IMG/VR virus record: IMGVR_UViG_3300033148_005531 | Location: 1-39,746 of that record | DNA from: a virus | DNA length: 39,746 nucleotides | Reading direction: 5' to 3' (one strand) | Shown here: in pieces, positions 6,317 to 36,413 of the stretch | Layout of the letters: each line of letters begins with the position of its first letter | Numbering within the stretch: the stretch's first letter is position 1 | The notes under the pieces: generated by a model | Told to the model about the DNA's origin: nothing | The model's database searches: none | Seen by the model: the letters and a program-made list of their open reading frames with translations, nothing else | Position numbers and translations under genes: made by a program

Positions 6317-7068
6317 AAAACTTTAAAGACGTATATGATATATTTTTTAACGCCGGCGAAGTGACCGAGATCCGGGCCTTTGGATTATCGCGAACAAATA
6401 AAGCCTGGGAAGGCTGGGCCGGCGGTACCGGAATTGTTTACGGGTATTTTGACAACCCGGATGATTTTGCCAGGGCAGCAGCAGCTCTTGAGCGACTCAA
6501 GGCGCCCGGAATATATTTTACAATAAATCCTGTGATCCCGGATCTTTTGGCCAGGTCCGCCAATCGGCTAAAAGCCGCCGGCGCGAAACCGCTTCAAACA
6601 TCGGACAAAAATATTCTCTGTATCCGGTGGCTTCCCATCGATCTGGATCCGGTCCGGCCATCGGGGATATCCTCCACAAACACGGAACTAAAATATTCAT
6701 TAAAAGTACAGCTAAGAATTAAGGAATACATCGAGCATAAATTTACACAATCAAAACCTCCTATACTGGCCGTATCCGGAAACGGTGCCCACCTGCTCTA
6801 CCGGCTGGAAGATCTGCCCAATACCGAAAAGATTACGGATTTGATCCGCCGGGCGCTGGCCGGAATCGGAAAAGAATTTTCCAATAAAAAAATAAACGTG
6901 GATCAAAAAGTCTTCAATCCCGCCCGGATATGGAAGTTGTACGGCACAACAGGCAGAAAAGGAGATCATACAAAAACGCGCCCGCACCGCAAAAGCTATA
7001 TTATATACAAACCAACGGCCAGTACAGGAACTCACCCAAAAAACAAAAAGAAGACGACTAAAGTCTAA
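6313..7068 (+). CDS. AEP/PrimPol-type primase
   Basis: The 251-aa product looks like an archaeo-eukaryotic primase domain that would make primers for phage DNA replication. Visible motifs are the metal-binding DxD (LPIDLDPVRP, D110 and D112), the nucleotide-binding block SGNGAHLLYRL with H160, and a third block VDQKVFNPARIWKLYGTTGRKG with D197 and R205. These match the order and spacing in PrimPol-type proteins of plasmids and phages. The C-terminus is a lysine-rich tail. It overlaps the previous gene by four bases and the helicase start by one base (TAATG), so primase and helicase are made together; in many related elements they are fused in one chain. Confidence 0.88.
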   Translation: MKNFKDVYDIFFNAGEVTEIRAFGLSRTNKAWEGWAGGTGIVYGYFDNPDDFARAAAALERLKAPGIYFTINPVIPDLLARSANRLKAAGAKPLQTSDKNILCIRWLPIDLDPVRPSGISSTNTELKYSLKVQLRIKEYIEHKFTQSKPPILAVSGNGAHLLYRLEDLPNTEKITDLIRRALAGIGKEFSNKKINVDQKVFNPARIWKLYGTTGRKGDHTKTRPHRKSYIIYKPTASTGTHPKNKKKTTKV

Positions 7069-10132: not shown

Positions 10133-10861
10133 ATGCCGACAAAAATCGAATGGTGTGAGGAAACATGGAATCCGGTAACCGGGTGTAGTGCTATAAGCGC
10201 CGGCTGTAAAAATTGTTATGCCCGGCGCATGGCCAACCGTTTGCGAGGCCGTTATGGATATCCTAAAGACAATCCTTTTCAAATTACATACCACCCGGAA
10301 AGATTTGATAAGCCTCGTAAATGGAAAAAACCTCGAATGATATTTATATGTTCTATGGGTGATCTATTTCACCATAATGTTCCTATAGATTGGATTTGGA
10401 ACGTTTATAATGAAATATATGATAATCCAAAACATATATTTTTAGTCCTCACCAAACGCATAGATCGCCTTGTAGAATTCCATCATATGTCGGATTTTTT
10501 AATGGATGATCCTATAAAAAATCTTTGGCTGGGTGTTACGGTTGAAAATCCGAAATATCTTTGGCGTATTGATGAGCTTCTTAAAATTCCGGCGATGGTT
10601 CGATTTGTCAGTATCGAGCCCATACTAGCCGCAATGGATATTAGAAAATATTTATATTATCCGCCATGTAAAGATGGGGTACCGCGATCGCTGATCAACT
10701 GGGTAATATGCGGTCCTGAAACCGGACCTGGTAGACGGGAATGCAAGCCGGATTGGATAAGGAATTTATATGATCAAACACGTTTTTCCTGCACGCCGTT
10801 TTTTGACAAAACAAAAAAAAATTGGATAGCAAGGGAGTATCCAAATGAAAAAAGACAGTAA
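10133..10861 (+). CDS. Phage Gp37/Gp68 family (DUF5131) protein
   Basis: The 242-aa protein matches the DUF5131 (phage Gp37/Gp68) family: the start IEWCEETWNPVTGCSAISAG, then CKNCYA, gives Cys at 8, 18, 25 and 28, suggesting an iron-sulfur or zinc site. IFICSMGDLFH, FLVLTKR, NLWLGVTVEN, FVSIEPIL and WVICGPETGPGRR are family-typical blocks resembling a radical-SAM-like barrel. The biochemical function is unknown to me. A family sometimes found beside it (three-Cys-motif partner) is not seen here. Its base composition is clearly more AT-rich than the flanking late genes, and it stands between two non-coding regions, which suggests a later acquisition (moron). Confidence 0.9.
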   Translation: MPTKIEWCEETWNPVTGCSAISAGCKNCYARRMANRLRGRYGYPKDNPFQITYHPERFDKPRKWKKPRMIFICSMGDLFHHNVPIDWIWNVYNEIYDNPKHIFLVLTKRIDRLVEFHHMSDFLMDDPIKNLWLGVTVENPKYLWRIDELLKIPAMVRFVSIEPILAAMDIRKYLYYPPCKDGVPRSLINWVICGPETGPGRRECKPDWIRNLYDQTRFSCTPFFDKTKKNWIAREYPNEKRQ

Positions 10862-26625: not shown

Positions 26626-27591
26626 ATGTACGGAATTGGGTACGGATTATCCAAAATGATGGAAGGCGCAACCGGCGGCGCGGTCAAAGGAACCATGGCC
26701 AATATGGCCTTGAACCAGCAGGAGAAAGACCGGGAAGCTACCCAGGCGTATCGGGAGAAAACCCTGGAGCAAGGCCAACAGCGGATCGATAATGAACAGG
26801 AGCGGTTTGAAATTAAACGTGATGTGGATGCCTTCAGGATTTCCTATGATATCGCCAAGGACTCACCGGATCCTAACGCCGTGTTTATGTCCATATATAA
26901 AAAATTAAACCCTGAAGGGGATCATCCCGAGGTCTCTTTCGGCGAAAAAGATATGGAAATAAATTTCAAAGGGTTGAATATCATAGGATCACAGGAACAT
27001 ATCCGCCAGGCCCTGGACATTATTTCCCGGCAACCGGAAATCACGCCACAGGTGTTTCAAAAGCTGGCTGAGCTGGGACTGGCGAAAATCACGGTGCCCA
27101 AGGCAGAGGCTAAAAAAGGTTTTGCAGTCATTAGTCCTGGACAAGGGGTTATGAGTAAGGACACAGGTGAAATAAAAATAGAACCCGATGCCGAAAAAAA
27201 AGCCAAGGCAGAAGGCAAGACAGTGAAAGTCAGCGATATTAATACCGCGCTTAACGCTCTATTTAAAAAATATAAAGTTGATGCCGGTTTAGGAATCAAT
27301 GTTACTCCGGACGGCAAATACACCGTGGACATGGCGGCGTTTATGGCCGGCAAGGAAACCGCTTACAACATTATCAAACAACAGGCCGATGCCGGTGATC
27401 CGGAAGCCAAACAGGACCTCGAAAAAATCAATGAGTATTACCGTTTAATGGACGGTCTGATCCGGGGCTCTCAAGGACCCGGACCGTCGCTCAATAAAAT
27501 GATTCCCGCCGGCGCCGGTAATGCAGCATCGGCAAACGGGAAGAAAAAAGCCGTTTATGATCCGTCAACCGGAAGGTTTACCTATAAATGA
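26626..27591 (+). CDS. Internal virion protein, second ejection component (321 aa)
   Basis: The start at 26626 is set by an AAGGAGG site directly upstream; an earlier in-frame ATG lies inside the previous gene. The protein begins with a short Gly-rich segment (MYGIGYGLSKMMEGATGGAV), then a long helical, Gln/Glu-rich coil (QQEKDREATQAYREKTLEQG), a mixed middle and a disordered end (GAGNAASANGKKK). This fits a coiled, ejectable internal virion protein. It overlaps the giant gene by four bases (ATGA at 27588). Confidence 0.72.
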   Translation: MYGIGYGLSKMMEGATGGAVKGTMANMALNQQEKDREATQAYREKTLEQGQQRIDNEQERFEIKRDVDAFRISYDIAKDSPDPNAVFMSIYKKLNPEGDHPEVSFGEKDMEINFKGLNIIGSQEHIRQALDIISRQPEITPQVFQKLAELGLAKITVPKAEAKKGFAVISPGQGVMSKDTGEIKIEPDAEKKAKAEGKTVKVSDINTALNALFKKYKVDAGLGINVTPDGKYTVDMAAFMAGKETAYNIIKQQADAGDPEAKQDLEKINEYYRLMDGLIRGSQGPGPSLNKMIPAGAGNAASANGKKKAVYDPSTGRFTYK

Positions 27592-30500
27592 TCGAGATCG
27601 AACTGCCAGACAAGGGCATAACCGTGGAGTTCCCGGACGGAACTCCTGAGTATGTCATGCGAAATGCCATCCAGGCCGAGTTTTACGGAGCGCTGGCTTT
27701 GCGTCAAGATGTTCCGGAAAAACCGGGCATGTTTCAACACATGATGCCGAGGCAATCCCTTCCTGAACAGACCGCCGAGGCTCAGATCGGTCTGGAAGCC
27801 ATGCAGCGGGGACTGACCCCCGAACAATACAAATCCGAAATATACCCGGAAGGATCGAGGCTAAAACGTCTTGAACAGATGGGCGATAATGTCATTTCCG
27901 GTGCCCTGGGGACCGCCGAAGGATTGATCGGCGGCGTTGAATGGATAACCGGAAGTGAAACCGCTAAAGAATTGGCAAATGTGGCAAAAGCCTGGCGCGA
28001 AGAATTAGCGCCGGAAGATCCTACCTTCGTGGATGAAATTGCCATGGGTGTAGGTTCCATGGCCACGTTCTTTATACCCGGTATCGGTGTTGCCAGAGGC
28101 GCTGAAGCGGCTGCAATCCTGGCCCCCAAATTGGCTGTCTGGGCCGGTGTGGGTGTTTCGTCGGCATTAGAAGCCATGACCGAAGCGGGTCTGGGATATC
28201 GAGAAACACTACAAGATACTAAAGATGTTAAAAAAGCCGAAGATGCCGCCGGTAAAACCTTCTGGATGAACATGGTCTTATTGCCCATAACCAACAAGCT
28301 GGGTGTCTTTGGTGAAAAAGGCGGAAAAGTCCGAAAAGCCATAATATCGGCATTAATGGAAGGTTCCCAGGAAGGCGCACAGGAGATCATCGCGGCTGTA
28401 GCCCAGAATAAGGATGTGGATCCGGAGGCGGTATTGAAATCCGCCGGTGTCGGCGCAATTGTAGGCGGTGGTGTCAGTGTGGTTACTCCGGGACAAAAAG
28501 CTCCGGTAGAAAAAAAGGCTGAAGAAGAAAGGCCGGATCTGACAGATCTTGAAGAAAAATACAAGCCCAGGCCTGAAGATAAGGTTAAGGCTGCGGCTGA
28601 AGCCAGACAGGCTGAGATCGATAAGGCGTTTGAAAAACCGGAAGATAAGATCAAAACCGCAGCTGAAGCGAGACAGGCTGAAATTGATAAAGCATTTCAA
28701 GAGACTGAAGAGGTTGAAAAAGCAAAAAAGCCTGTTGAAGAAGCTCAAAAGATCGTTAAAAAAGAACCTGTTAAAAAAGCCGAAGAGCCAAAACTTCCGA
28801 CCAAGCGAGAAAAAGCGTTACAGGAATACAAAGACTATATCAATCAATTGTCTCCGGAGGAAAAAGAAAAAGCCAGGGATTTGATCATCGATGAACCGGT
28901 TCATGCGCTTTTGACTATGCGCAAGATTCAAAATCGTTTGGCCGAACCTGAAAAAGTCAAGGCTGAAGAACCCGTTAAGAAAGAACTTGCACCTGAGATC
29001 CCTACAAAGATCGAACGTGGACATGGATATGATATACGAATAGTTGAAGAACCTGAAAGACCTGATTTATATAAACAGATTGAAGATCTTAAAAAACAAG
29101 CTGAAAACGCCGGAGAGAAGTTTCCGCGCGGCACTATGCAAGCCATTTCAGCACAGATGCGAAATCTTGAAAAAGGTGCCGGCGATATCGAAGTTGTTAA
29201 AACCATCATCAACGAAGCCAAGGATGAGTTGCAGAAACTTCAGAAGGTTGAAAAACCTTTCGTAATTGTTTCGGACAAGGTCAATGAAAAATTATCTGAA
29301 GAAAAAGGACAATTAACTTCAAAAGAATTATTTTCCTGGTCTGATGAAGCCCATGGCGGCACCCAGGCTGAAGGCAAATATACGCCTAAAGATGCCTATG
29401 ATGCCATGGAATTAGGAATTAATAAATATATATTAAAGGAAAATCCCAAAGGACCTGTCGGCCAGGATGATGTTACACGGGCAAAGGATATTATCGGCTG
29501 GATAAAAAAACGGATCATTCCCAGGATCCCCACTCAAAGCAAACGCACTGCCGAAGCAGATGAGTTCCAGCAGTTTTCGACGCCGCCGCATTTATCCTAT
29601 GCGGCCAATTGGGTAGCCAATATAAATAAGGATGATGTTTATATAGAACCGAGTGCCGGTATAGGGGGCCTGGCCGTATTCGGAAAGTTGGCCGGCGCAA
29701 AAGAGATTGTTGTCAATGAATTATCTAAAAGGCGTTTGAATTTATTAAAAGAATTAGGGTTTACCAAATATTTCAATGAAGATGCCGCACAGCTGAACAA
29801 TATACTCCCAAAAGATGTTAAGCCCACAGTGGTTGTGATGAATCCGCCGTTTTCCGCGACCGCCGGACGTATCCAGGGTAAACGGGCTACAATGGAAGGT
29901 GCCAACCATGTAGAGCAGGCTTTGAAGCGATTATTGACAAATGGCCGCCTGGTTGCTATAGTTGGTAAAGGGATGGCTCATGACCGGTCATCTTTCCGCG
30001 ATTGGTGGAAAAAGATCGAGTCTGAGTATACTGTTCTTGCCGATATAGGTATCAGCGGCAAAGAATATTCAAAATACGGCACTACTTTTGATAATCGAAT
30101 CCTGATTATCGATAAAACAGGACCGACCACAAAGAAAGTCCTGACAGGCGATGTGGAAAAGGTCGAAGATCTTATCCCGTTGCTGGAAGGAGTTAGAAAT
30201 GCCAGAACTCATCCCGGAGAACGACCTGCCTATAAACCGGGCCGCGAAGAACGAACTGAAGAAATCGAAACAAAGCCCGGACCCGAACCTGTTGTATTGC
30301 CTACAGGCGGCGAAGTGGGCGATAGACAGCGGCAAGCTGGAAGTGAAGCAACCCGGCCTACTGGAGAACCTGGACGCATTCCTGTATCAGTGGAATCCGA
30401 AAGAGGCCATGGCGTTCCTACAAAACGAACACAACCTCATGAAAGACCTTCCCAAGAAAAGGAACCTGTTGGACGTGGGCCTGGCGGTGCTGAACCAACT

Positions 30501-33500
30501 GGACAGCCGATTGTCAGCGACACTTCCCGGATATCCGAGGCCGAGAGATCTACCGGCGAACTTCAGATAAAAACCAAGGAAAAAGAAGCCGCCGGTGAAT
30601 TGACCGAAGATCTTTATGAAGGTTACCGTCCCGAACGCCTTGATATTCCCAATGCAAAAAAACACCCTACCCCGTTAGTTCAAAGCGCGGCCATGGCCGC
30701 AGTAACGCCTCCGAGTCCGTTCTACAACCCAAGTTTACCCCCAAAGATTATCAAAGCCGGAAATTTGAGCGAAATACAGCTTGAATCTATTGTCTATGCC
30801 GGTCAATCTCACAGTGAAATATTGCCCGATGAAACCCGGCGCGGCTATTTTATCGGTGATGGAACCGGTGTGGGCAAAGGCCGGGAGATTGCCGGTATAA
30901 TCTGGGATAACTGGACAAAGGGCAGAAAAAAAGCGGTGTGGATATCGGAAAAAGCATCATTGTTTCAGGATGCAAAACGCGATGTTCAGGGCGCTGGATG
31001 GGACCCGGAAAAACTGTTTATTCAAAACAAAGTCAAGGCTACCGCTACGATCCTGGGCGAAGAAGGTGTTCTGTTTACAACTTATGATACGTTGAAATCC
31101 TCTCCCAGACAAGAGGGCGCTATGTCGCGGCTTGAACAGATCGTCGATTGGCTGGGTGAAGATTTTGACGGAGTGATCGCTTTCGATGAATCCCATAACA
31201 TGGGAAATGCTATTGCCGTCAGAGGTGAACGCGGAACAAAGCAACCTTCGGCCAAAGCCCTGGCCGGAGTGGAGCTTCAAAATGCGCTTCCCAATGCCCG
31301 TATTGTATATGTATCTGCCACCGGTGCAACGGAAGTGATAAATCTGGCATATTGCGAACGTTTAGGTTTGTGGGGTGAAGGAACCCCTTTCAGCAGCAAG
31401 CTTGATTTTGTTCAGGAAATATCCAGCGGCGGGATCGCGGCCATGGAACTTGTTGCACGGGATATGAAATCCATGGGAATCTATAATGCCAGATCCCTTT
31501 CTTATGAAGGCGTAAGTTATGACCGGCTTGAACATGAACTCACCCCTTCACAGGTCGCTCAATACAACAAAATGGCGCAAGCCTGGCAGCATGTTTTGTC
31601 TGAAATTCACAAGGCCATGGAAGTCACCGGTGCAAATGAAAACGGCAGGGCAAAAGGCGCGGCTCAAAGCGCGTTTTGGGGCGCTCATCAGCGTTTCTTT
31701 AACCAGGTGATCACGTCAATTCAATTGCCTACGGTTATCAATTCCATTCATCAAGATTTAAAAAATGGTGACAGTGTTGTTGTTCAGCTTGTGAATACGC
31801 TGGAAGCAGCACAGGAAAGGGCATTGGCCAGGTTGACGGAAGAAGACAGCCTGGAAGATCTGGATTTGAGTCCCTTTGATATGCTGATGCAATTGGTAGA
31901 ACACAGCTACCCGGTGGCTCAGTTCGAAAAATACATGGATGATGACGGAAATATAAGGTCCCGGCTCGTTGAGGATTCCCAGGGCAATGTGATTGAAAAT
32001 GCCGATGCCGTTGAAATGCGCGAAAGGTTATTGGACGATCTTGGGGCTTTGCGCCGGGAAGTTGCCGAAAATCCCATCGATCAGATTATCGAGGAATTTG
32101 GGATTGAAAATGTTGCCGAAGTGACCGGACGCCGGCGCAGGGTCGTTTATAAAATAACGGATAAAGGTCGCGAGAGGGTCATAGAAAAAAGATCCCGCGC
32201 CAAGGCAATGGCCGATGCCGATGCTTATATGGACGGAAAAAAGAAAATATTGGTTTTTTCCGAAGCCGGCGGCACCGGAAGAAGCTATCATGCGGATCTT
32301 GACGCCAATAACCAGGATCGCCGCATACATTATCTTCTGCAACCGGGCTGGAGGGCAGATAAGGCCGTCCAGGGCCTTGGGCGTACCCATCGATCAAACC
32401 AGAAACAACCTCCTGTCTATCGATTATGCACGACCAATTTGAAAGGTCAAAAGCGTTTCCTTTCTTCCATTGCCCGCCGACTCGATCAATTGGGCGCTTT
32501 AACCAAAGGATCGAGAAAAACCGGATCACAGGGAATCTTTCAGGCCAGGGACAACCTTGAAAGCGATTATGCCAGGGATGCCCTTCGAATCTTCTTTGAT
32601 GATCTTGTCAGTGGGCGGATCAATACTATTTCGGTAAGCGAGTTTGAAGATCAGACCGGGCTTCGACTGGTGGATGAATACGGTAACATGATGGCCAATT
32701 TGCCGGAAATCAGACAATTTTTAAATCGCATACTTTCAATGAACGTCGAACTTCAAAATGCGGTTTTCGATGAATTCAGCCAGCGGGTAGACAATGTGGT
32801 CGAATCCCATATTAAAGCCGGTACACTGGACCAGGGCCTTGAAACGCTCAAAGCGGAAAAGGTTGAAAAAATCAGCGAAGAAACGGTTCATACTGATGAA
32901 AGGTCCGGTGCCGAAACCAAATACGTGCAACTGAACGTAACTAATAAAGCACCAATATTGGAATATGAGGCCGCAAACACATATGCCAAAGATGGTTTTT
33001 TCAGGAATATAAAAAGCGGCAAAGTCTGGGCGGCTACGGTTAGAACCATTACTAATCGTCAAACCGGTGATCGGGTGGATACCTATGTTTTAAAATCCCA
33101 TACCTACGGAGAGCAGCGTATCAAAAAGGATGAGTTTACCGACGATAAATGGGAAAAGCTCACCGAATCTCAGGCAAAAACTTTGTGGCAGGAAGCCGTT
33201 GACGAAGCGCCTAAAACCATTACCCGCCAGGAACACCTTATCACCGGAACCTTGCTGCCGATATGGAACCGGTTGATCGGCCATCCCCGAATTATGCGAG
33301 TTCAGACCAATGAAGGCGAGCGCATGATCGGCAGGATAATCGGCAGCGCGGATCTTGAAAGGACATTAAAAAACATCGGCGCTAAAGCGTCCAAGGTCAA
33401 AATGGATCCCGGTGAAATACATGCGCGGGTATTGGATCAAAATTACAGCATCGATCTGGCAAATCAATGGCGTATCTTCCGCAGGCGCGTTTCCGGTGAT

Positions 33501-36413
33501 CAGCGTATAGAAATTGCCGGACTCGGTTATTCAGATGCCGAAATGCTAAGAAAGTACGGTCTTTTTTCAGAGCGCATAAATTATCAAACCCGATATTTCA
33601 TACCGACCGGCAAAGAAGGCATTAGCACCATTTCACAGATCGTAAAAAACGCACCGGTTGTGGCTGCAAATCCGCCGGTTACATCGGCCATGGGCGCGAA
33701 AGAAGGCCAAAGCATATTCGATGCCCTGGGCGAAGAGGCGGGTTTTATCAATATTGATATGCTGGTTCCAAAGAGATTGGCCAAAAAATTAAAAGAGATT
33801 GCACTAAATGCCCAGAATTCCCGATTAGAACATTGGTATAACTACATCCGTGGTCGGCAGGATGCCAAAATAAGCGTTATATTGCAGAAAAAGCACACGC
33901 CGCAATTGGGCCACTGGATCCGGAACATGGAAAGCATCCTATCTCAGACCGATGAAGGTCGAAAGATATACGAATCAGGCAGGGAATTTAAGGAAAAAAC
34001 CATACGACGTTTTCGCAAATGGGAGGCTAACTATAATGAAGCGGTAGAAGGGCTGTCCGATCAGGAGAAAAAGACAGTTTTAAAAATATTGGATAGCACA
34101 GAAGAAATTACCGGAGATCATCCGGCGGAAGTTGCAGCTGAAAAGATCCGGACTTTATTACAGGACGTAAGAGAGTACCTTGTAGAGAACGGTCACCAGG
34201 TGGGATACCTGGAAGGATATTTGCCGCATATCTTTCAAGGACGTTTTTGGGTAAGCACTAAAGATGAATTTTCGCATAAGGTCGAAACTATCGGCCAGGC
34301 CCTCCAGATCGCCCAGGAATGGATTGAAAAGGGAAAGACAAGGGTAAAGGTCATGCAAGATACCTTTATTCCTCCTGACGACGCTACGATGCTATCGCAA
34401 CGCGGATACTGGCGTCTGGTCAAAGCCATCCAAAACCAGGCGGGTGAATCCATCGAGATCCTTAATGACCTGGGTACCGACGAAATACACCAAATGCTAT
34501 CTAAAGAAAAGATTGCACGGCCTAAACCCAGAAGGCGATTTTTCGGCAATCTGATGCGTCGCGTGGTGGGCAATCCGAATTATATAAAAAATTTAGATGA
34601 GATCATGCGGCTATATTTTTACGGTGCATCGAGGAAGGTTGGACAGGATATTTTCTGGCGTAAAGTTCAGCGCAACATGGATGCAATGCCGGCGGCGGAT
34701 CAACGATTAAAGCAATTCATTGAAACGGTATATTTACCAGGGACTTTAGCACACCCGACCAATATGGAAGAAGCGGTTGCAAATATATTTCACAAATTAA
34801 AAATTGTACCGGGCTTTAGCAGTCAAGACGTTAGAAAGATTATGCACAATGTCAACCTGGTTCAATATGTATGGGATCTGGGTCTTTCAGGATCCTCGGC
34901 AATCGCAAATGCGTCGCAATTCTTTATTAACGCTTATCCCATAGTAGGCGAAGTGAGCGCTGCCAAAGGATATCGAAAAGGTGCAAAAACATTTTTTAAT
35001 AGAAAACTGTTGGCTGAAGTTGAAAAAATGGGGATTACTCAGGGCGTGAGCGCCATAACCGGTGAAATCCTGGTCACCAAAGATGCATTGAAAGAATTTA
35101 AGAGCAAAATGCTGTTCAAGGCCGGGCCTAAAGGATTCGCGGAAGCAACCCTAATCCCATTTACGACCGTGGAAGTGATGAACCGTTTTTCAACCTATTG
35201 GGCGGGAAAGGATTTTGCGGCGAAACAATTAAAAAAAGGAAAATCCGCTTTAAAGGCAGCGCGACTGGTTGTTCCGGATACGTCCAGCCTGGTTGCCTTG
35301 GGCCGTGAAATAGATAACCGACTGGCCGATAAAACCACTAAGAGAAATGCCTCCTGGAGAAAAAAAACAGTACGGCTCCAAGAAGAGTTTGCGCAAAAAT
35401 TCGGTTACGAACTCAATGATAAGGTTAATTTTCGAGTGGGCCGGGAAAACCTGCCCCAGATCATTCGAGAAGTTCCGGCCCGGCTGTTTTCTCCGTATAA
35501 ATCGTTTTTGCTGAATCAGCTAAAATACACAGTGGATACGTTGAATCCCAAAGGGGTAAAGACCAATCCTAAAAAGGCGCTGCGTTTTACGATCATGACG
35601 CTGGCTTTAGCCGGTGTGGCCGGCAATCCGGTGGTATATGGGATATTCCAAATGCTTCGGTATTTATACAAACAGCTGTTCGGTGTTGACATTGAGAAAG
35701 AATTAAGACGAAAAAATCTAACGCGCGGAATTCCCGGTAAATTGGGGCTGGATATTTCCGGATCCGTGGCCATACAGATGCCCAAACGATTATATGATCT
35801 ATTGGGCCGTTATGGAAAAATAGCAATAGAATTAGGAAACCTGGCTTATGAAAAAGGTACCGGTGCCGGCACGATTCGAACGGAGCGCAAATTAAAACGT
35901 CAAACCATGCCTGCGCAGCTGCAACGGGTAGTGGATGCCATGAAGATCCTGGAGCGCGGAGAATACATTACGCCGATTACCAGGACACCGGTGGCCATTA
36001 GCGAGAAGCCTTGGGTAGCAGCTGTAAAACGAGCGGCTGGAATTCTCCCTGCGGATGTGGCCAAGGCGTTTGACGAAGAACGTGAGATCGAGAAGTTAAA
36101 GAAACGATATAAAAGCTTGTCTTCAGACTTAACAGAACGCTGGGCCGAAGCTGTAAAAAATGGTGATCCGGAGAAAATGGACCGGACAATACGAAAGGTT
36201 GTTCATAGCGTAAATAATGCGCTTGACAGGCTCAATAACGCAAAAGGTCCGGATGATGTTACAAGGGCTATGACGGATCTATTATTCTGGCAAGCCTGGA
36301 TCGAAAAGGACCAAAAATTTAAAAATGCTATTTTAAGAAAACATATTCCCAGACAGATAGAAAAAAAGCGCCGATTGCCAAAATACTTACAGCCGGAAGC
36401 GGTGGCGCCATAG
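27588..36413 (+). CDS. Giant polyvalent ejection protein: MTase + strawberry-notch helicase
   Basis: This single uninterrupted 2,941-aa protein likely enters the cell with phage DNA, as do the polyvalent proteins of P1-like (DarB) and many other phages. In order: an N-terminal VEFPDGT segment; hydrophobic helices (about 147-201) and a glycine-zipper (285-302); a Lys/Glu-rich linker with a 22-residue duplication (329-372); an N6-adenine methyltransferase (EPSAGIGG 687-694, NPPF 752-755); a low-complexity linker (about 865-1000) hiding another gene; a strawberry-notch-type SF2 helicase (Walker A GTGVGKG 1092-1098, DESHN 1200-1204, motif VI QGLGRTHR 1595-1602); a polyvalent-associated C-terminal part; and a membrane-like stretch (about 2667-2698). 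Methylation and helicase action could block restriction of incoming DNA. Confidence 0.9.
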   Translation: MIEIELPDKGITVEFPDGTPEYVMRNAIQAEFYGALALRQDVPEKPGMFQHMMPRQSLPEQTAEAQIGLEAMQRGLTPEQYKSEIYPEGSRLKRLEQMGDNVISGALGTAEGLIGGVEWITGSETAKELANVAKAWREELAPEDPTFVDEIAMGVGSMATFFIPGIGVARGAEAAAILAPKLAVWAGVGVSSALEAMTEAGLGYRETLQDTKDVKKAEDAAGKTFWMNMVLLPITNKLGVFGEKGGKVRKAIISALMEGSQEGAQEIIAAVAQNKDVDPEAVLKSAGVGAIVGGGVSVVTPGQKAPVEKKAEEERPDLTDLEEKYKPRPEDKVKAAAEARQAEIDKAFEKPEDKIKTAAEARQAEIDKAFQETEEVEKAKKPVEEAQKIVKKEPVKKAEEPKLPTKREKALQEYKDYINQLSPEEKEKARDLIIDEPVHALLTMRKIQNRLAEPEKVKAEEPVKKELAPEIPTKIERGHGYDIRIVEEPERPDLYKQIEDLKKQAENAGEKFPRGTMQAISAQMRNLEKGAGDIEVVKTIINEAKDELQKLQKVEKPFVIVSDKVNEKLSEEKGQLTSKELFSWSDEAHGGTQAEGKYTPKDAYDAMELGINKYILKENPKGPVGQDDVTRAKDIIGWIKKRIIPRIPTQSKRTAEADEFQQFSTPPHLSYAANWVANINKDDVYIEPSAGIGGLAVFGKLAGAKEIVVNELSKRRLNLLKELGFTKYFNEDAAQLNNILPKDVKPTVVVMNPPFSATAGRIQGKRATMEGANHVEQALKRLLTNGRLVAIVGKGMAHDRSSFRDWWKKIESEYTVLADIGISGKEYSKYGTTFDNRILIIDKTGPTTKKVLTGDVEKVEDLIPLLEGVRNARTHPGERPAYKPGREERTEEIETKPGPEPVVLPTGGEVGDRQRQAGSEATRPTGEPGRIPVSVESERGHGVPTKRTQPHERPSQEKEPVGRGPGGAEPTGQPIVSDTSRISEAERSTGELQIKTKEKEAAGELTEDLYEGYRPERLDIPNAKKHPTPLVQSAAMAAVTPPSPFYNPSLPPKIIKAGNLSEIQLESIVYAGQSHSEILPDETRRGYFIGDGTGVGKGREIAGIIWDNWTKGRKKAVWISEKASLFQDAKRDVQGAGWDPEKLFIQNKVKATATILGEEGVLFTTYDTLKSSPRQEGAMSRLEQIVDWLGEDFDGVIAFDESHNMGNAIAVRGERGTKQPSAKALAGVELQNALPNARIVYVSATGATEVINLAYCERLGLWGEGTPFSSKLDFVQEISSGGIAAMELVARDMKSMGIYNARSLSYEGVSYDRLEHELTPSQVAQYNKMAQAWQHVLSEIHKAMEVTGANENGRAKGAAQSAFWGAHQRFFNQVITSIQLPTVINSIHQDLKNGDSVVVQLVNTLEAAQERALARLTEEDSLEDLDLSPFDMLMQLVEHSYPVAQFEKYMDDDGNIRSRLVEDSQGNVIENADAVEMRERLLDDLGALRREVAENPIDQIIEEFGIENVAEVTGRRRRVVYKITDKGRERVIEKRSRAKAMADADAYMDGKKKILVFSEAGGTGRSYHADLDANNQDRRIHYLLQPGWRADKAVQGLGRTHRSNQKQPPVYRLCTTNLKGQKRFLSSIARRLDQLGALTKGSRKTGSQGIFQARDNLESDYARDALRIFFDDLVSGRINTISVSEFEDQTGLRLVDEYGNMMANLPEIRQFLNRILSMNVELQNAVFDEFSQRVDNVVESHIKAGTLDQGLETLKAEKVEKISEETVHTDERSGAETKYVQLNVTNKAPILEYEAANTYAKDGFFRNIKSGKVWAATVRTITNRQTGDRVDTYVLKSHTYGEQRIKKDEFTDDKWEKLTESQAKTLWQEAVDEAPKTITRQEHLITGTLLPIWNRLIGHPRIMRVQTNEGERMIGRIIGSADLERTLKNIGAKASKVKMDPGEIHARVLDQNYSIDLANQWRIFRRRVSGDQRIEIAGLGYSDAEMLRKYGLFSERINYQTRYFIPTGKEGISTISQIVKNAPVVAANPPVTSAMGAKEGQSIFDALGEEAGFINIDMLVPKRLAKKLKEIALNAQNSRLEHWYNYIRGRQDAKISVILQKKHTPQLGHWIRNMESILSQTDEGRKIYESGREFKEKTIRRFRKWEANYNEAVEGLSDQEKKTVLKILDSTEEITGDHPAEVAAEKIRTLLQDVREYLVENGHQVGYLEGYLPHIFQGRFWVSTKDEFSHKVETIGQALQIAQEWIEKGKTRVKVMQDTFIPPDDATMLSQRGYWRLVKAIQNQAGESIEILNDLGTDEIHQMLSKEKIARPKPRRRFFGNLMRRVVGNPNYIKNLDEIMRLYFYGASRKVGQDIFWRKVQRNMDAMPAADQRLKQFIETVYLPGTLAHPTNMEEAVANIFHKLKIVPGFSSQDVRKIMHNVNLVQYVWDLGLSGSSAIANASQFFINAYPIVGEVSAAKGYRKGAKTFFNRKLLAEVEKMGITQGVSAITGEILVTKDALKEFKSKMLFKAGPKGFAEATLIPFTTVEVMNRFSTYWAGKDFAAKQLKKGKSALKAARLVVPDTSSLVALGREIDNRLADKTTKRNASWRKKTVRLQEEFAQKFGYELNDKVNFRVGRENLPQIIREVPARLFSPYKSFLLNQLKYTVDTLNPKGVKTNPKKALRFTIMTLALAGVAGNPVVYGIFQMLRYLYKQLFGVDIEKELRRKNLTRGIPGKLGLDISGSVAIQMPKRLYDLLGRYGKIAIELGNLAYEKGTGAGTIRTERKLKRQTMPAQLQRVVDAMKILERGEYITPITRTPVAISEKPWVAAVKRAAGILPADVAKAFDEEREIEKLKKRYKSLSSDLTERWAEAVKNGDPEKMDRTIRKVVHSVNNALDRLNNAKGPDDVTRAMTDLLFWQAWIEKDQKFKNAILRKHIPRQIEKKRRLPKYLQPEAVAP
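28572..28703 (+). repeat. Two 66-bp coding repeats in the giant gene
   Basis: Units 28572-28637 and 28638-28703 each encode a 22-residue charged helix (PEDKVKAAAEARQAEIDKAF type) in the linker before the methyltransferase. They probably form an extended helix or coil. Confidence 0.85.
30199..30570 (+). CDS. Nested overlapping gene inside the giant gene (+1 frame, 123 aa)
   Basis: A 123-codon frame begins at ATG 30199, six bases after a perfect GGAAGGAG (30185-30192), and lies entirely inside the giant gene in its +1 frame. The product has ordinary protein composition and predicted helices (NLLYCLQAAKWAIDSGKLEV, LLENLDAFLYQWNPKEAMAF, KRNLLDVGLAVLNQLDSRLS) with Trp, Tyr, Cys and regular Leu. 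The giant frame over the same bases (about residues 871-995) is low-complexity Pro/Gly/Glu/Arg linker. That contrast and the ribosome-binding site argue that the nested frame is a genuine gene, perhaps born in or inserted through a permissive linker. Family not recognised. A chance open frame remains possible. Confidence 0.65.
   Translation: MPELIPENDLPINRAAKNELKKSKQSPDPNLLYCLQAAKWAIDSGKLEVKQPGLLENLDAFLYQWNPKEAMAFLQNEHNLMKDLPKKRNLLDVGLAVLNQLDSRLSATLPGYPRPRDLPANFR

Follow-up and report, generated by a model that had tools for sequence, protein, structure and literature searches.

DarB of phage P1 is a component of the virion head that protects injected DNA against type I restriction (PMC5512222), and the same paper describes DarB-like polyvalent proteins with a methylase-SNF2 dyad in phages and conjugative plasmids and names a Methylomonas example (Iyer et al. 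2017, PMC5512222). The giant gene studied here is alike, with an adenine methylase fused to a strawberry-notch SWI2/SNF2 ATPase, and a term search of that paper returned, for the text it covered, no mention of an overlap or of another gene located in the linker (PMC5512222). In the present study, we analysed a 39,746-base virus record (IMG/VR record IMGVR_UViG_3300033148_005531, hereafter the window), in which such a giant gene encloses a second open reading frame (ORF) of 123 codons in its +1 frame ((30199 − 27588) mod 3 = 1). Our comparative results indicate that this nested ORF is almost certainly a real and conserved protein-coding gene: the +1 protein is conserved, its start is fixed, selection is specific to its frame, its predicted fold is confident and a free-standing copy exists. 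The out-of-frame gene that the original prediction had placed in the methylase-helicase linker thus stands. The features concerned are the following.

30199..30570, plus strand: nested gene (ATG 30199-30201, stop codon ending at 30570), 123 residues, predicted all-helical product; from the ORF, homologue matches, purifying selection and AlphaFold
30185..30192, plus strand: Shine-Dalgarno sequence GGAAGGAG of the nested gene, 6 bases 5' of its ATG; from the sequence
27588..36413, plus strand: giant polyvalent gene, 2941 residues, enclosing the nested gene; from the ORF and domain matches
29568..30197, plus strand: adenine-methylase part of the giant, its end one base before the nested ATG; from a 32-sequence alignment and a PHROG methyltransferase match
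30198..30659, plus strand: low-complexity linker in the giant frame, the stretch in which the nested gene lies; from the translation
30660..31571, plus strand: AAA_34, N-terminal lobe of a strawberry-notch-type superfamily 2 (SF2)/SNF2 ATPase (PF13872, E 5e-119, residues 1025-1328)
32070..32846, plus strand: Helicase_C_4, strawberry-notch C-terminal lobe (PF13871, E 1.5e-91, residues 1495-1753)

The elements that had been read from the window were found as described, i.e., the 123-codon +1 ORF with its ATG and GGAAGGAG six bases upstream, its place between the methylase part (5') and the helicase (AAA_34 from residue 1025, nucleotide 30660), and the Pro/Gly/Arg/Glu-rich giant frame across it, seen in the translation.

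Conservation of the nested gene across giant homologues

Using residues 661-1104 of the giant as query, we obtained 37 viral loci, nearly all of which have an open +1 frame at the corresponding position, with a recognisably similar product, over a low-complexity giant frame. The methylase part alone as query added loci from bacterial genomes and viral contigs, giving a total of 158 unique giant homologues, nearly all of which were picked by the giant frame or its methylase and not by the nested profile. In 101 of these 158 loci, a profile built from 31 nested proteins found its match in the +1 frame, at the methylase-helicase junction; it hit the +2 frame once (a frameshifted copy) and the antisense frames never, and iteration of the profile led to 103 loci with a +1 nested gene. 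The recovery of unseen nested proteins (66/68) is partly circular, as the nested profile had itself selected the loci concerned, and 101/158 is the fair figure. Conserved positions include L/N-x-x-P-L/I-N near the N-terminus, an L-x-x-W-A-L-E/D-x-G helix, a central proline and an A-A-x-x-L-L-E-x-L helix.

A direct search was proposed with the original prediction and gave nothing: neither tblastn searches of phage records with the nested protein of the window nor a pattern scan of viral contigs returned a match, because the nested protein diverges fast, and its relatives were therefore gathered via the methylase of the giant. Scans with nested sub-alignments found only already known nested copies, or nothing. 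Some giant relatives within the nested-positive part of the tree (L163, L138 and L021) have the nested ORF lost, truncated or replaced, and the linkers of L163 and L138 carry unrelated sequence in its place. The linkers of L076, L193 and L198 contain an extra helical-looking giant-frame insertion between the +1 ORF and the helicase.

Selection and composition by frame

Identity was higher in the nested than in the giant frame for 29 of 30 separate pairs, and changes altering only the nested protein occurred at 0.23 per opportunity, compared with 0.41 for those altering only the giant. In gap-free pairs, where the alignment is unable to favour either frame, nested identity was higher in 97/97 (pairs that share members and are not independent), and the differences were distributed over nested codon positions 1, 2 and 3 as 2370, 1589 and 4029, while in the methylase flank the wobble falls at giant position 3, as normal. 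These results indicate that, of the two frames sharing this DNA, the nested one experiences the stronger purifying selection. Frame-by-frame selection in homologous giants, one of the checks initially suggested, thus favours the nested gene; its counterpart, +1 stops or lost conservation over a conserved linker frame, is the opposite of what we found, the nested frame being the better conserved. Composition differs as well, with 43% hydrophobic residues including Trp, Phe and Tyr in the nested product, and 20% Gly and almost no Phe, Trp or Tyr in the giant frame over the same DNA.

In the window alone, the nested ORF is compatible with chance, and its significance comes from the comparative evidence only. 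Synonymous recoding of the giant left the +1 frame open at the site in 6% (permutation) or 14% (codon usage) of trials and gave a +1 run of nested-ORF length somewhere in the giant in 15% (i.e., P 0.06-0.14 at the site and 0.15 for the whole giant), and the antisense frames of the giant hold open runs of up to 304 codons, longer than the nested ORF. If the +1 ORF were untranslated, a side effect of codon bias in the low-complexity linker, such an unexceptional length would be expected, and so would the spurious Arg/Ser-rich +1 ORFs seen at sphingomonad loci. However, the conserved product is the +1 protein and not the giant linker, the ATG has a fixed position, the predicted fold is confident, and a free-standing copy exists without the giant frame, which leaves this explanation exceedingly improbable.

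Start site and translation route

The nested start is an ATG in all 103 loci, and in 99 of them its distance from the methylase end is identical to the base; in these 99, a giant codon ends in AT and the next one starts with G (residues N, D or H, then D, E, A, G or V), a constraint on the giant codons that is due to the nested ATG. A Shine-Dalgarno-like match of at least 4 nucleotides precedes the ATG in 93% of nested-positive loci; synonymous recoding gives an expectation of 79%, and 50% of nested-negative loci have such a match at the corresponding place. At several loci the giant residues vary (EG, RS, RE, WE) and the purine-rich Shine-Dalgarno sequence is maintained. From these signals, we consider it very likely that the nested gene is translated by internal initiation. 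One further ATG is present upstream in the window.

30151..30198, plus strand: extension of the nested frame from an alternative ATG, giving a 139-residue version; the conserved start is 30199

The 139-residue version from ATG 30151 is probably not used. The +1 frame of the window is open for 18 codons 5' of the nested ATG, so that a +1 shift from the methylase, producing a methylase-nested fusion instead of an internally initiated protein, is formally possible there. In contrast, a +1 stop occurs within 3 codons upstream of the nested ATG in 16 of the 103 loci, within 10 codons in 53 and within 20 codons in 85, and frameshift fusion is therefore not the general route. Since the ATG is present at every locus with a Shine-Dalgarno sequence upstream in most, and the free-standing copy begins at its own ATG, such a fusion is very unlikely; the features of a programmed frameshift (+1 open from the shift site, no own start) were not found in the nested gene.

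Carriers and a free-standing copy

Carriers of the nested gene comprise phages as well as plasmids of methanotrophs and of Thioflavicoccus (two of the four typed as conjugative), and the carrier contigs were assigned to Pseudomonadota, Thermodesulfobacteriota, Bacillota, Bacteroidota and Kiritimatiellota. The nested gene is not phage-specific, since conjugative plasmids carry it too. The 20 phage records hold one nested copy each, all +1-nested where checked, and the plasmid copies were matched in the +1 frame with E 1e-26 to 1e-33. The plasmid gene tables list at this site the giant or nothing, never the nested gene. As an example, plasmid MEALZ_p of Methylotuvimicrobium alcaliphilum 20Z (L203) encodes a nested product of 114 residues, with IAYNPATELAALVLIR and NLLDTGEVQEPLLLIAK as expected tryptic peptides. 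Overall, there is one copy per element in nearly all cases, and all copies found but one are located exactly at the methylase-helicase junction, in phages and plasmids alike. Among 347 genomes of two families, we found 18 nested copies and one free copy, as follows.

3166-2822, minus strand (Thiocystis violacea, L233, G010:C18): free-standing copy, 114 residues, with its own GGGAGG and no adjoining methylase

Thiocystis violacea holds the free-standing and a nested copy on one contig, with 67% protein identity between them and differences distributed over codon positions as 26, 15 and 40. The free-standing copy has three stops in the giant-type frame and an intact hidden frame, and it adjoins KorA-type, TrbL and transglycosylase genes of a conjugative element.

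Predicted fold and search for known relatives

The AlphaFold model of the nested protein is all-helical (mean predicted local distance difference test, pLDDT, 85.6; predicted template modelling score, pTM, 0.77), with helices at residues 6-9, 11-22, 33-43, 52-63, 67-75, 80-83 and 90-108, in agreement with the helix-rich, protein-like product that had been expected. We thus predict a soluble protein of five to seven helices that would represent a new family. Searches of Pfam, PHROGs, NCBIfam and Protein Data Bank (PDB) sequences with the nested protein gave only scattered single weak matches, none recurrent or significant, an absence that leaves room for remote kinship, and Foldseek and VIA-align found no convincing fold for either nested model (best Z 3.4 and 3.9). 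An Rz1-type spanin was considered and rejected: the N-terminus MPELIPENDLPINRAAKNEL has no lipoprotein signal or lipobox, the single Cys is at residue 34 and the model is that of a soluble helical protein. An RNA-level explanation of the site was also set aside, with no Rfam match around the nested ORF.

At Planctomycetota and related loci, a +1 ORF occurs at the same site, its model (pLDDT 88.4, pTM 0.82) has five main helices in the same order and of similar lengths as the window-type model, and its frame is again better conserved than the giant frame. Profile-profile comparison of the planctomycete-type proteins with the main nested family gave no link (probability 1%), and from position and helix order only, they are probable distant relatives. 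The Planctomycetota/Nitrospirota-type giants (L075, L078, L080, L083, L084, L087, L088, L092 and L103, ~6600-6980) carry a +1 ORF of the form MGEFAN...WNRL...WAA..LLLATLDRL, which may be distantly related to the main family or may have arisen independently. In Bacteroides phage BS-TP4 (L199, from ~3665), a very distant giant relative with 27% identity is annotated only as one hypothetical protein, and its low-complexity linker contains a protein-like +1 ORF of ~120 codons (permutation P 0.013).

Linker length and origin of the overlap

The giant linker has a median length of 156.5 codons with the nested gene, and of ~45 (acidobacterial clade) or ~83 codons (alphaproteobacterial clade) without it. 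On the methylase tree, the nested gene is strongly clustered with apparent losses, e.g., in the short-linker acidobacterial clade; this FastTree tree has no inferred root, and gain and loss are not separable by count alone. Since long linkers are found mainly where the nested gene is present, and the nested frame is the better conserved, the long Pro/Gly/Arg/Glu linker is probably a by-product of the nested gene, i.e., its passive reading in the other frame. The original prediction of a new gene overprinted on the linker is thus kept for the gene itself, and the direction is probably reversed, given the short linkers of gene-less relatives.

Under classical overprinting, the long disordered linker would be the older feature and the +1 gene a de novo addition to it. 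Overlapping viral genes are usually explained in this way (PMC8227390), and the nested gene is absent from the deep outgroups. However, the linkers of nested-negative outgroups are short and not long, the nested product resembles an ordinary protein in composition and fold while the giant frame is depauperate, and the giant linker evolves faster than the nested frame. Overprinting in this order therefore appears unlikely. We tentatively put forward a different history, in which the small gene would be a conserved partner and the linker its shadow, the methylase and the SNF2 ATPase having been joined across, or having received, a pre-existing gene, so that the shared DNA would encode a folded accessory subunit in one frame and, in the other, a flexible linker, with the pair then kept in phages and conjugative plasmids of several bacterial phyla as an unannotated part of an antirestriction machine for DNA transfer.

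Proposed function

Ribosomes very likely initiate internally on the mRNA of the giant, at the conserved ATG and Shine-Dalgarno sequence that belong to the nested gene, so that a small helical protein would be made whenever the giant is translated. We suggest that this product would act as an accessory partner, e.g., a regulatory or assembly subunit of the methylase-helicase whose production would be tied in time and place to that of the giant, and would be a candidate component of a DarB-like antirestriction machine protecting injected DNA. The accessory role is proposed because almost every copy lies at the methylase-SNF2 junction in both phages and plasmids. As a whole, a nested gene that is internally initiated and accessory to the methylase-SNF2 module is a reading that we hold with good confidence; the partnership of the protein with the methylase-helicase, taken on its own, is plausible and hardly firmer than that.

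Several points weigh against this reading. The proposed function is read from location and co-occurrence, and shared DNA linkage alone could explain the co-occurrence without physical partnership. Short-linker relatives keep the methylase and helicase without the nested gene, which is therefore not needed for the methylase-helicase module as such. The free-standing copy is a single case from a draft genome, the Shine-Dalgarno excess over the recoding control is only moderate (93% against 79%), and the nested gene appears unrelated to any named family or solved structure within reach of our searches.

A product with its own function (e.g., counter-defence or host control), held in the giant only by history and sharing nothing more with it than the mRNA and its expression, is nearly as likely as the partner role, and a serious possibility in itself. 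Methylase-SNF2 genes without the nested gene are common, the free-standing copy sits in a conjugative element beside a KorA-type regulator, and most family members are acidic (median isoelectric point 4.8). All copies but the free one lie, on the other hand, exactly at the junction in phages and plasmids, and the window product is basic (isoelectric point 8.7) and ill-suited to a DNA mimic, a role that we had considered since most members are acidic and that we rejected for the window product on this ground. The accessory partner is retained as the working proposal.

The giant gene and its phage

The giant fits the gamma class of adenine methylases (TP and NPP(Y/F) motifs, as given in the motif description of PMC5512222), the S-T-P and NPPFS motifs being invariant in the methylase part over the 32 aligned sequences, and PF13872 and PF13871 match the C-terminal strawberry-notch SWI2/SNF2 ATPase of DarB-like polyvalent proteins. 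Its place among head and internal virion genes suggests that the giant may be carried in the virion and injected. The window encodes an integrase, a helix-turn-helix repressor-like protein, a primase, a terminase, a head-tail adaptor, a major head protein, an internal virion protein and a tail spike, and is read as a temperate podovirus. A second open +1 stretch of 113 codons (28540-28884, codon index 318) lies in the giant over a Lys/Glu/Ala-rich N-terminal segment, and a DUF5131 protein is encoded at 10133-10861 (PF07505, E 1.7e-72).

Significance and comparison with known systems

Nested genes are known, and most of them are lineage-specific. The nested gene described here is an unannotated family at one exact position in ~100 phage and plasmid genes, for which the free-standing relative serves as natural control. 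RefSeq-type records annotate the giant and miss the nested gene, so that a whole gene family has been overlooked by standard annotation. Low-complexity linkers in giant phage proteins may thus be the shadow of a hidden gene, and a fixed ATG at a domain boundary together with wobble shifted to another frame offers a route to more of them. The nested gene is also a candidate addition to the poorly understood DarB-like methylase-helicase machinery. A search for a prior description of the nested gene in the open PubMed Central (PMC) literature returned mostly unrelated work.

Rz1 within Rz and E within D of phiX174 are phage lysis genes nested out of frame, and the present case is alike in that a short gene with a separate start site is read, in a shifted frame, wholly inside another. 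Unlike Rz1 and phiX174 E, which serve lysis, the present gene encodes a predicted soluble helical protein, sits in the linker between domains and has been conserved in both phages and plasmids. The overprinted genes of E. coli O157:H7 are described as antisense or recently arisen orphans (PMC9927249, PMC4683798); they resemble the nested gene as long overlapping ORFs missed by annotation, and in contrast to them, the nested gene is on the same strand as its host gene and widely conserved.

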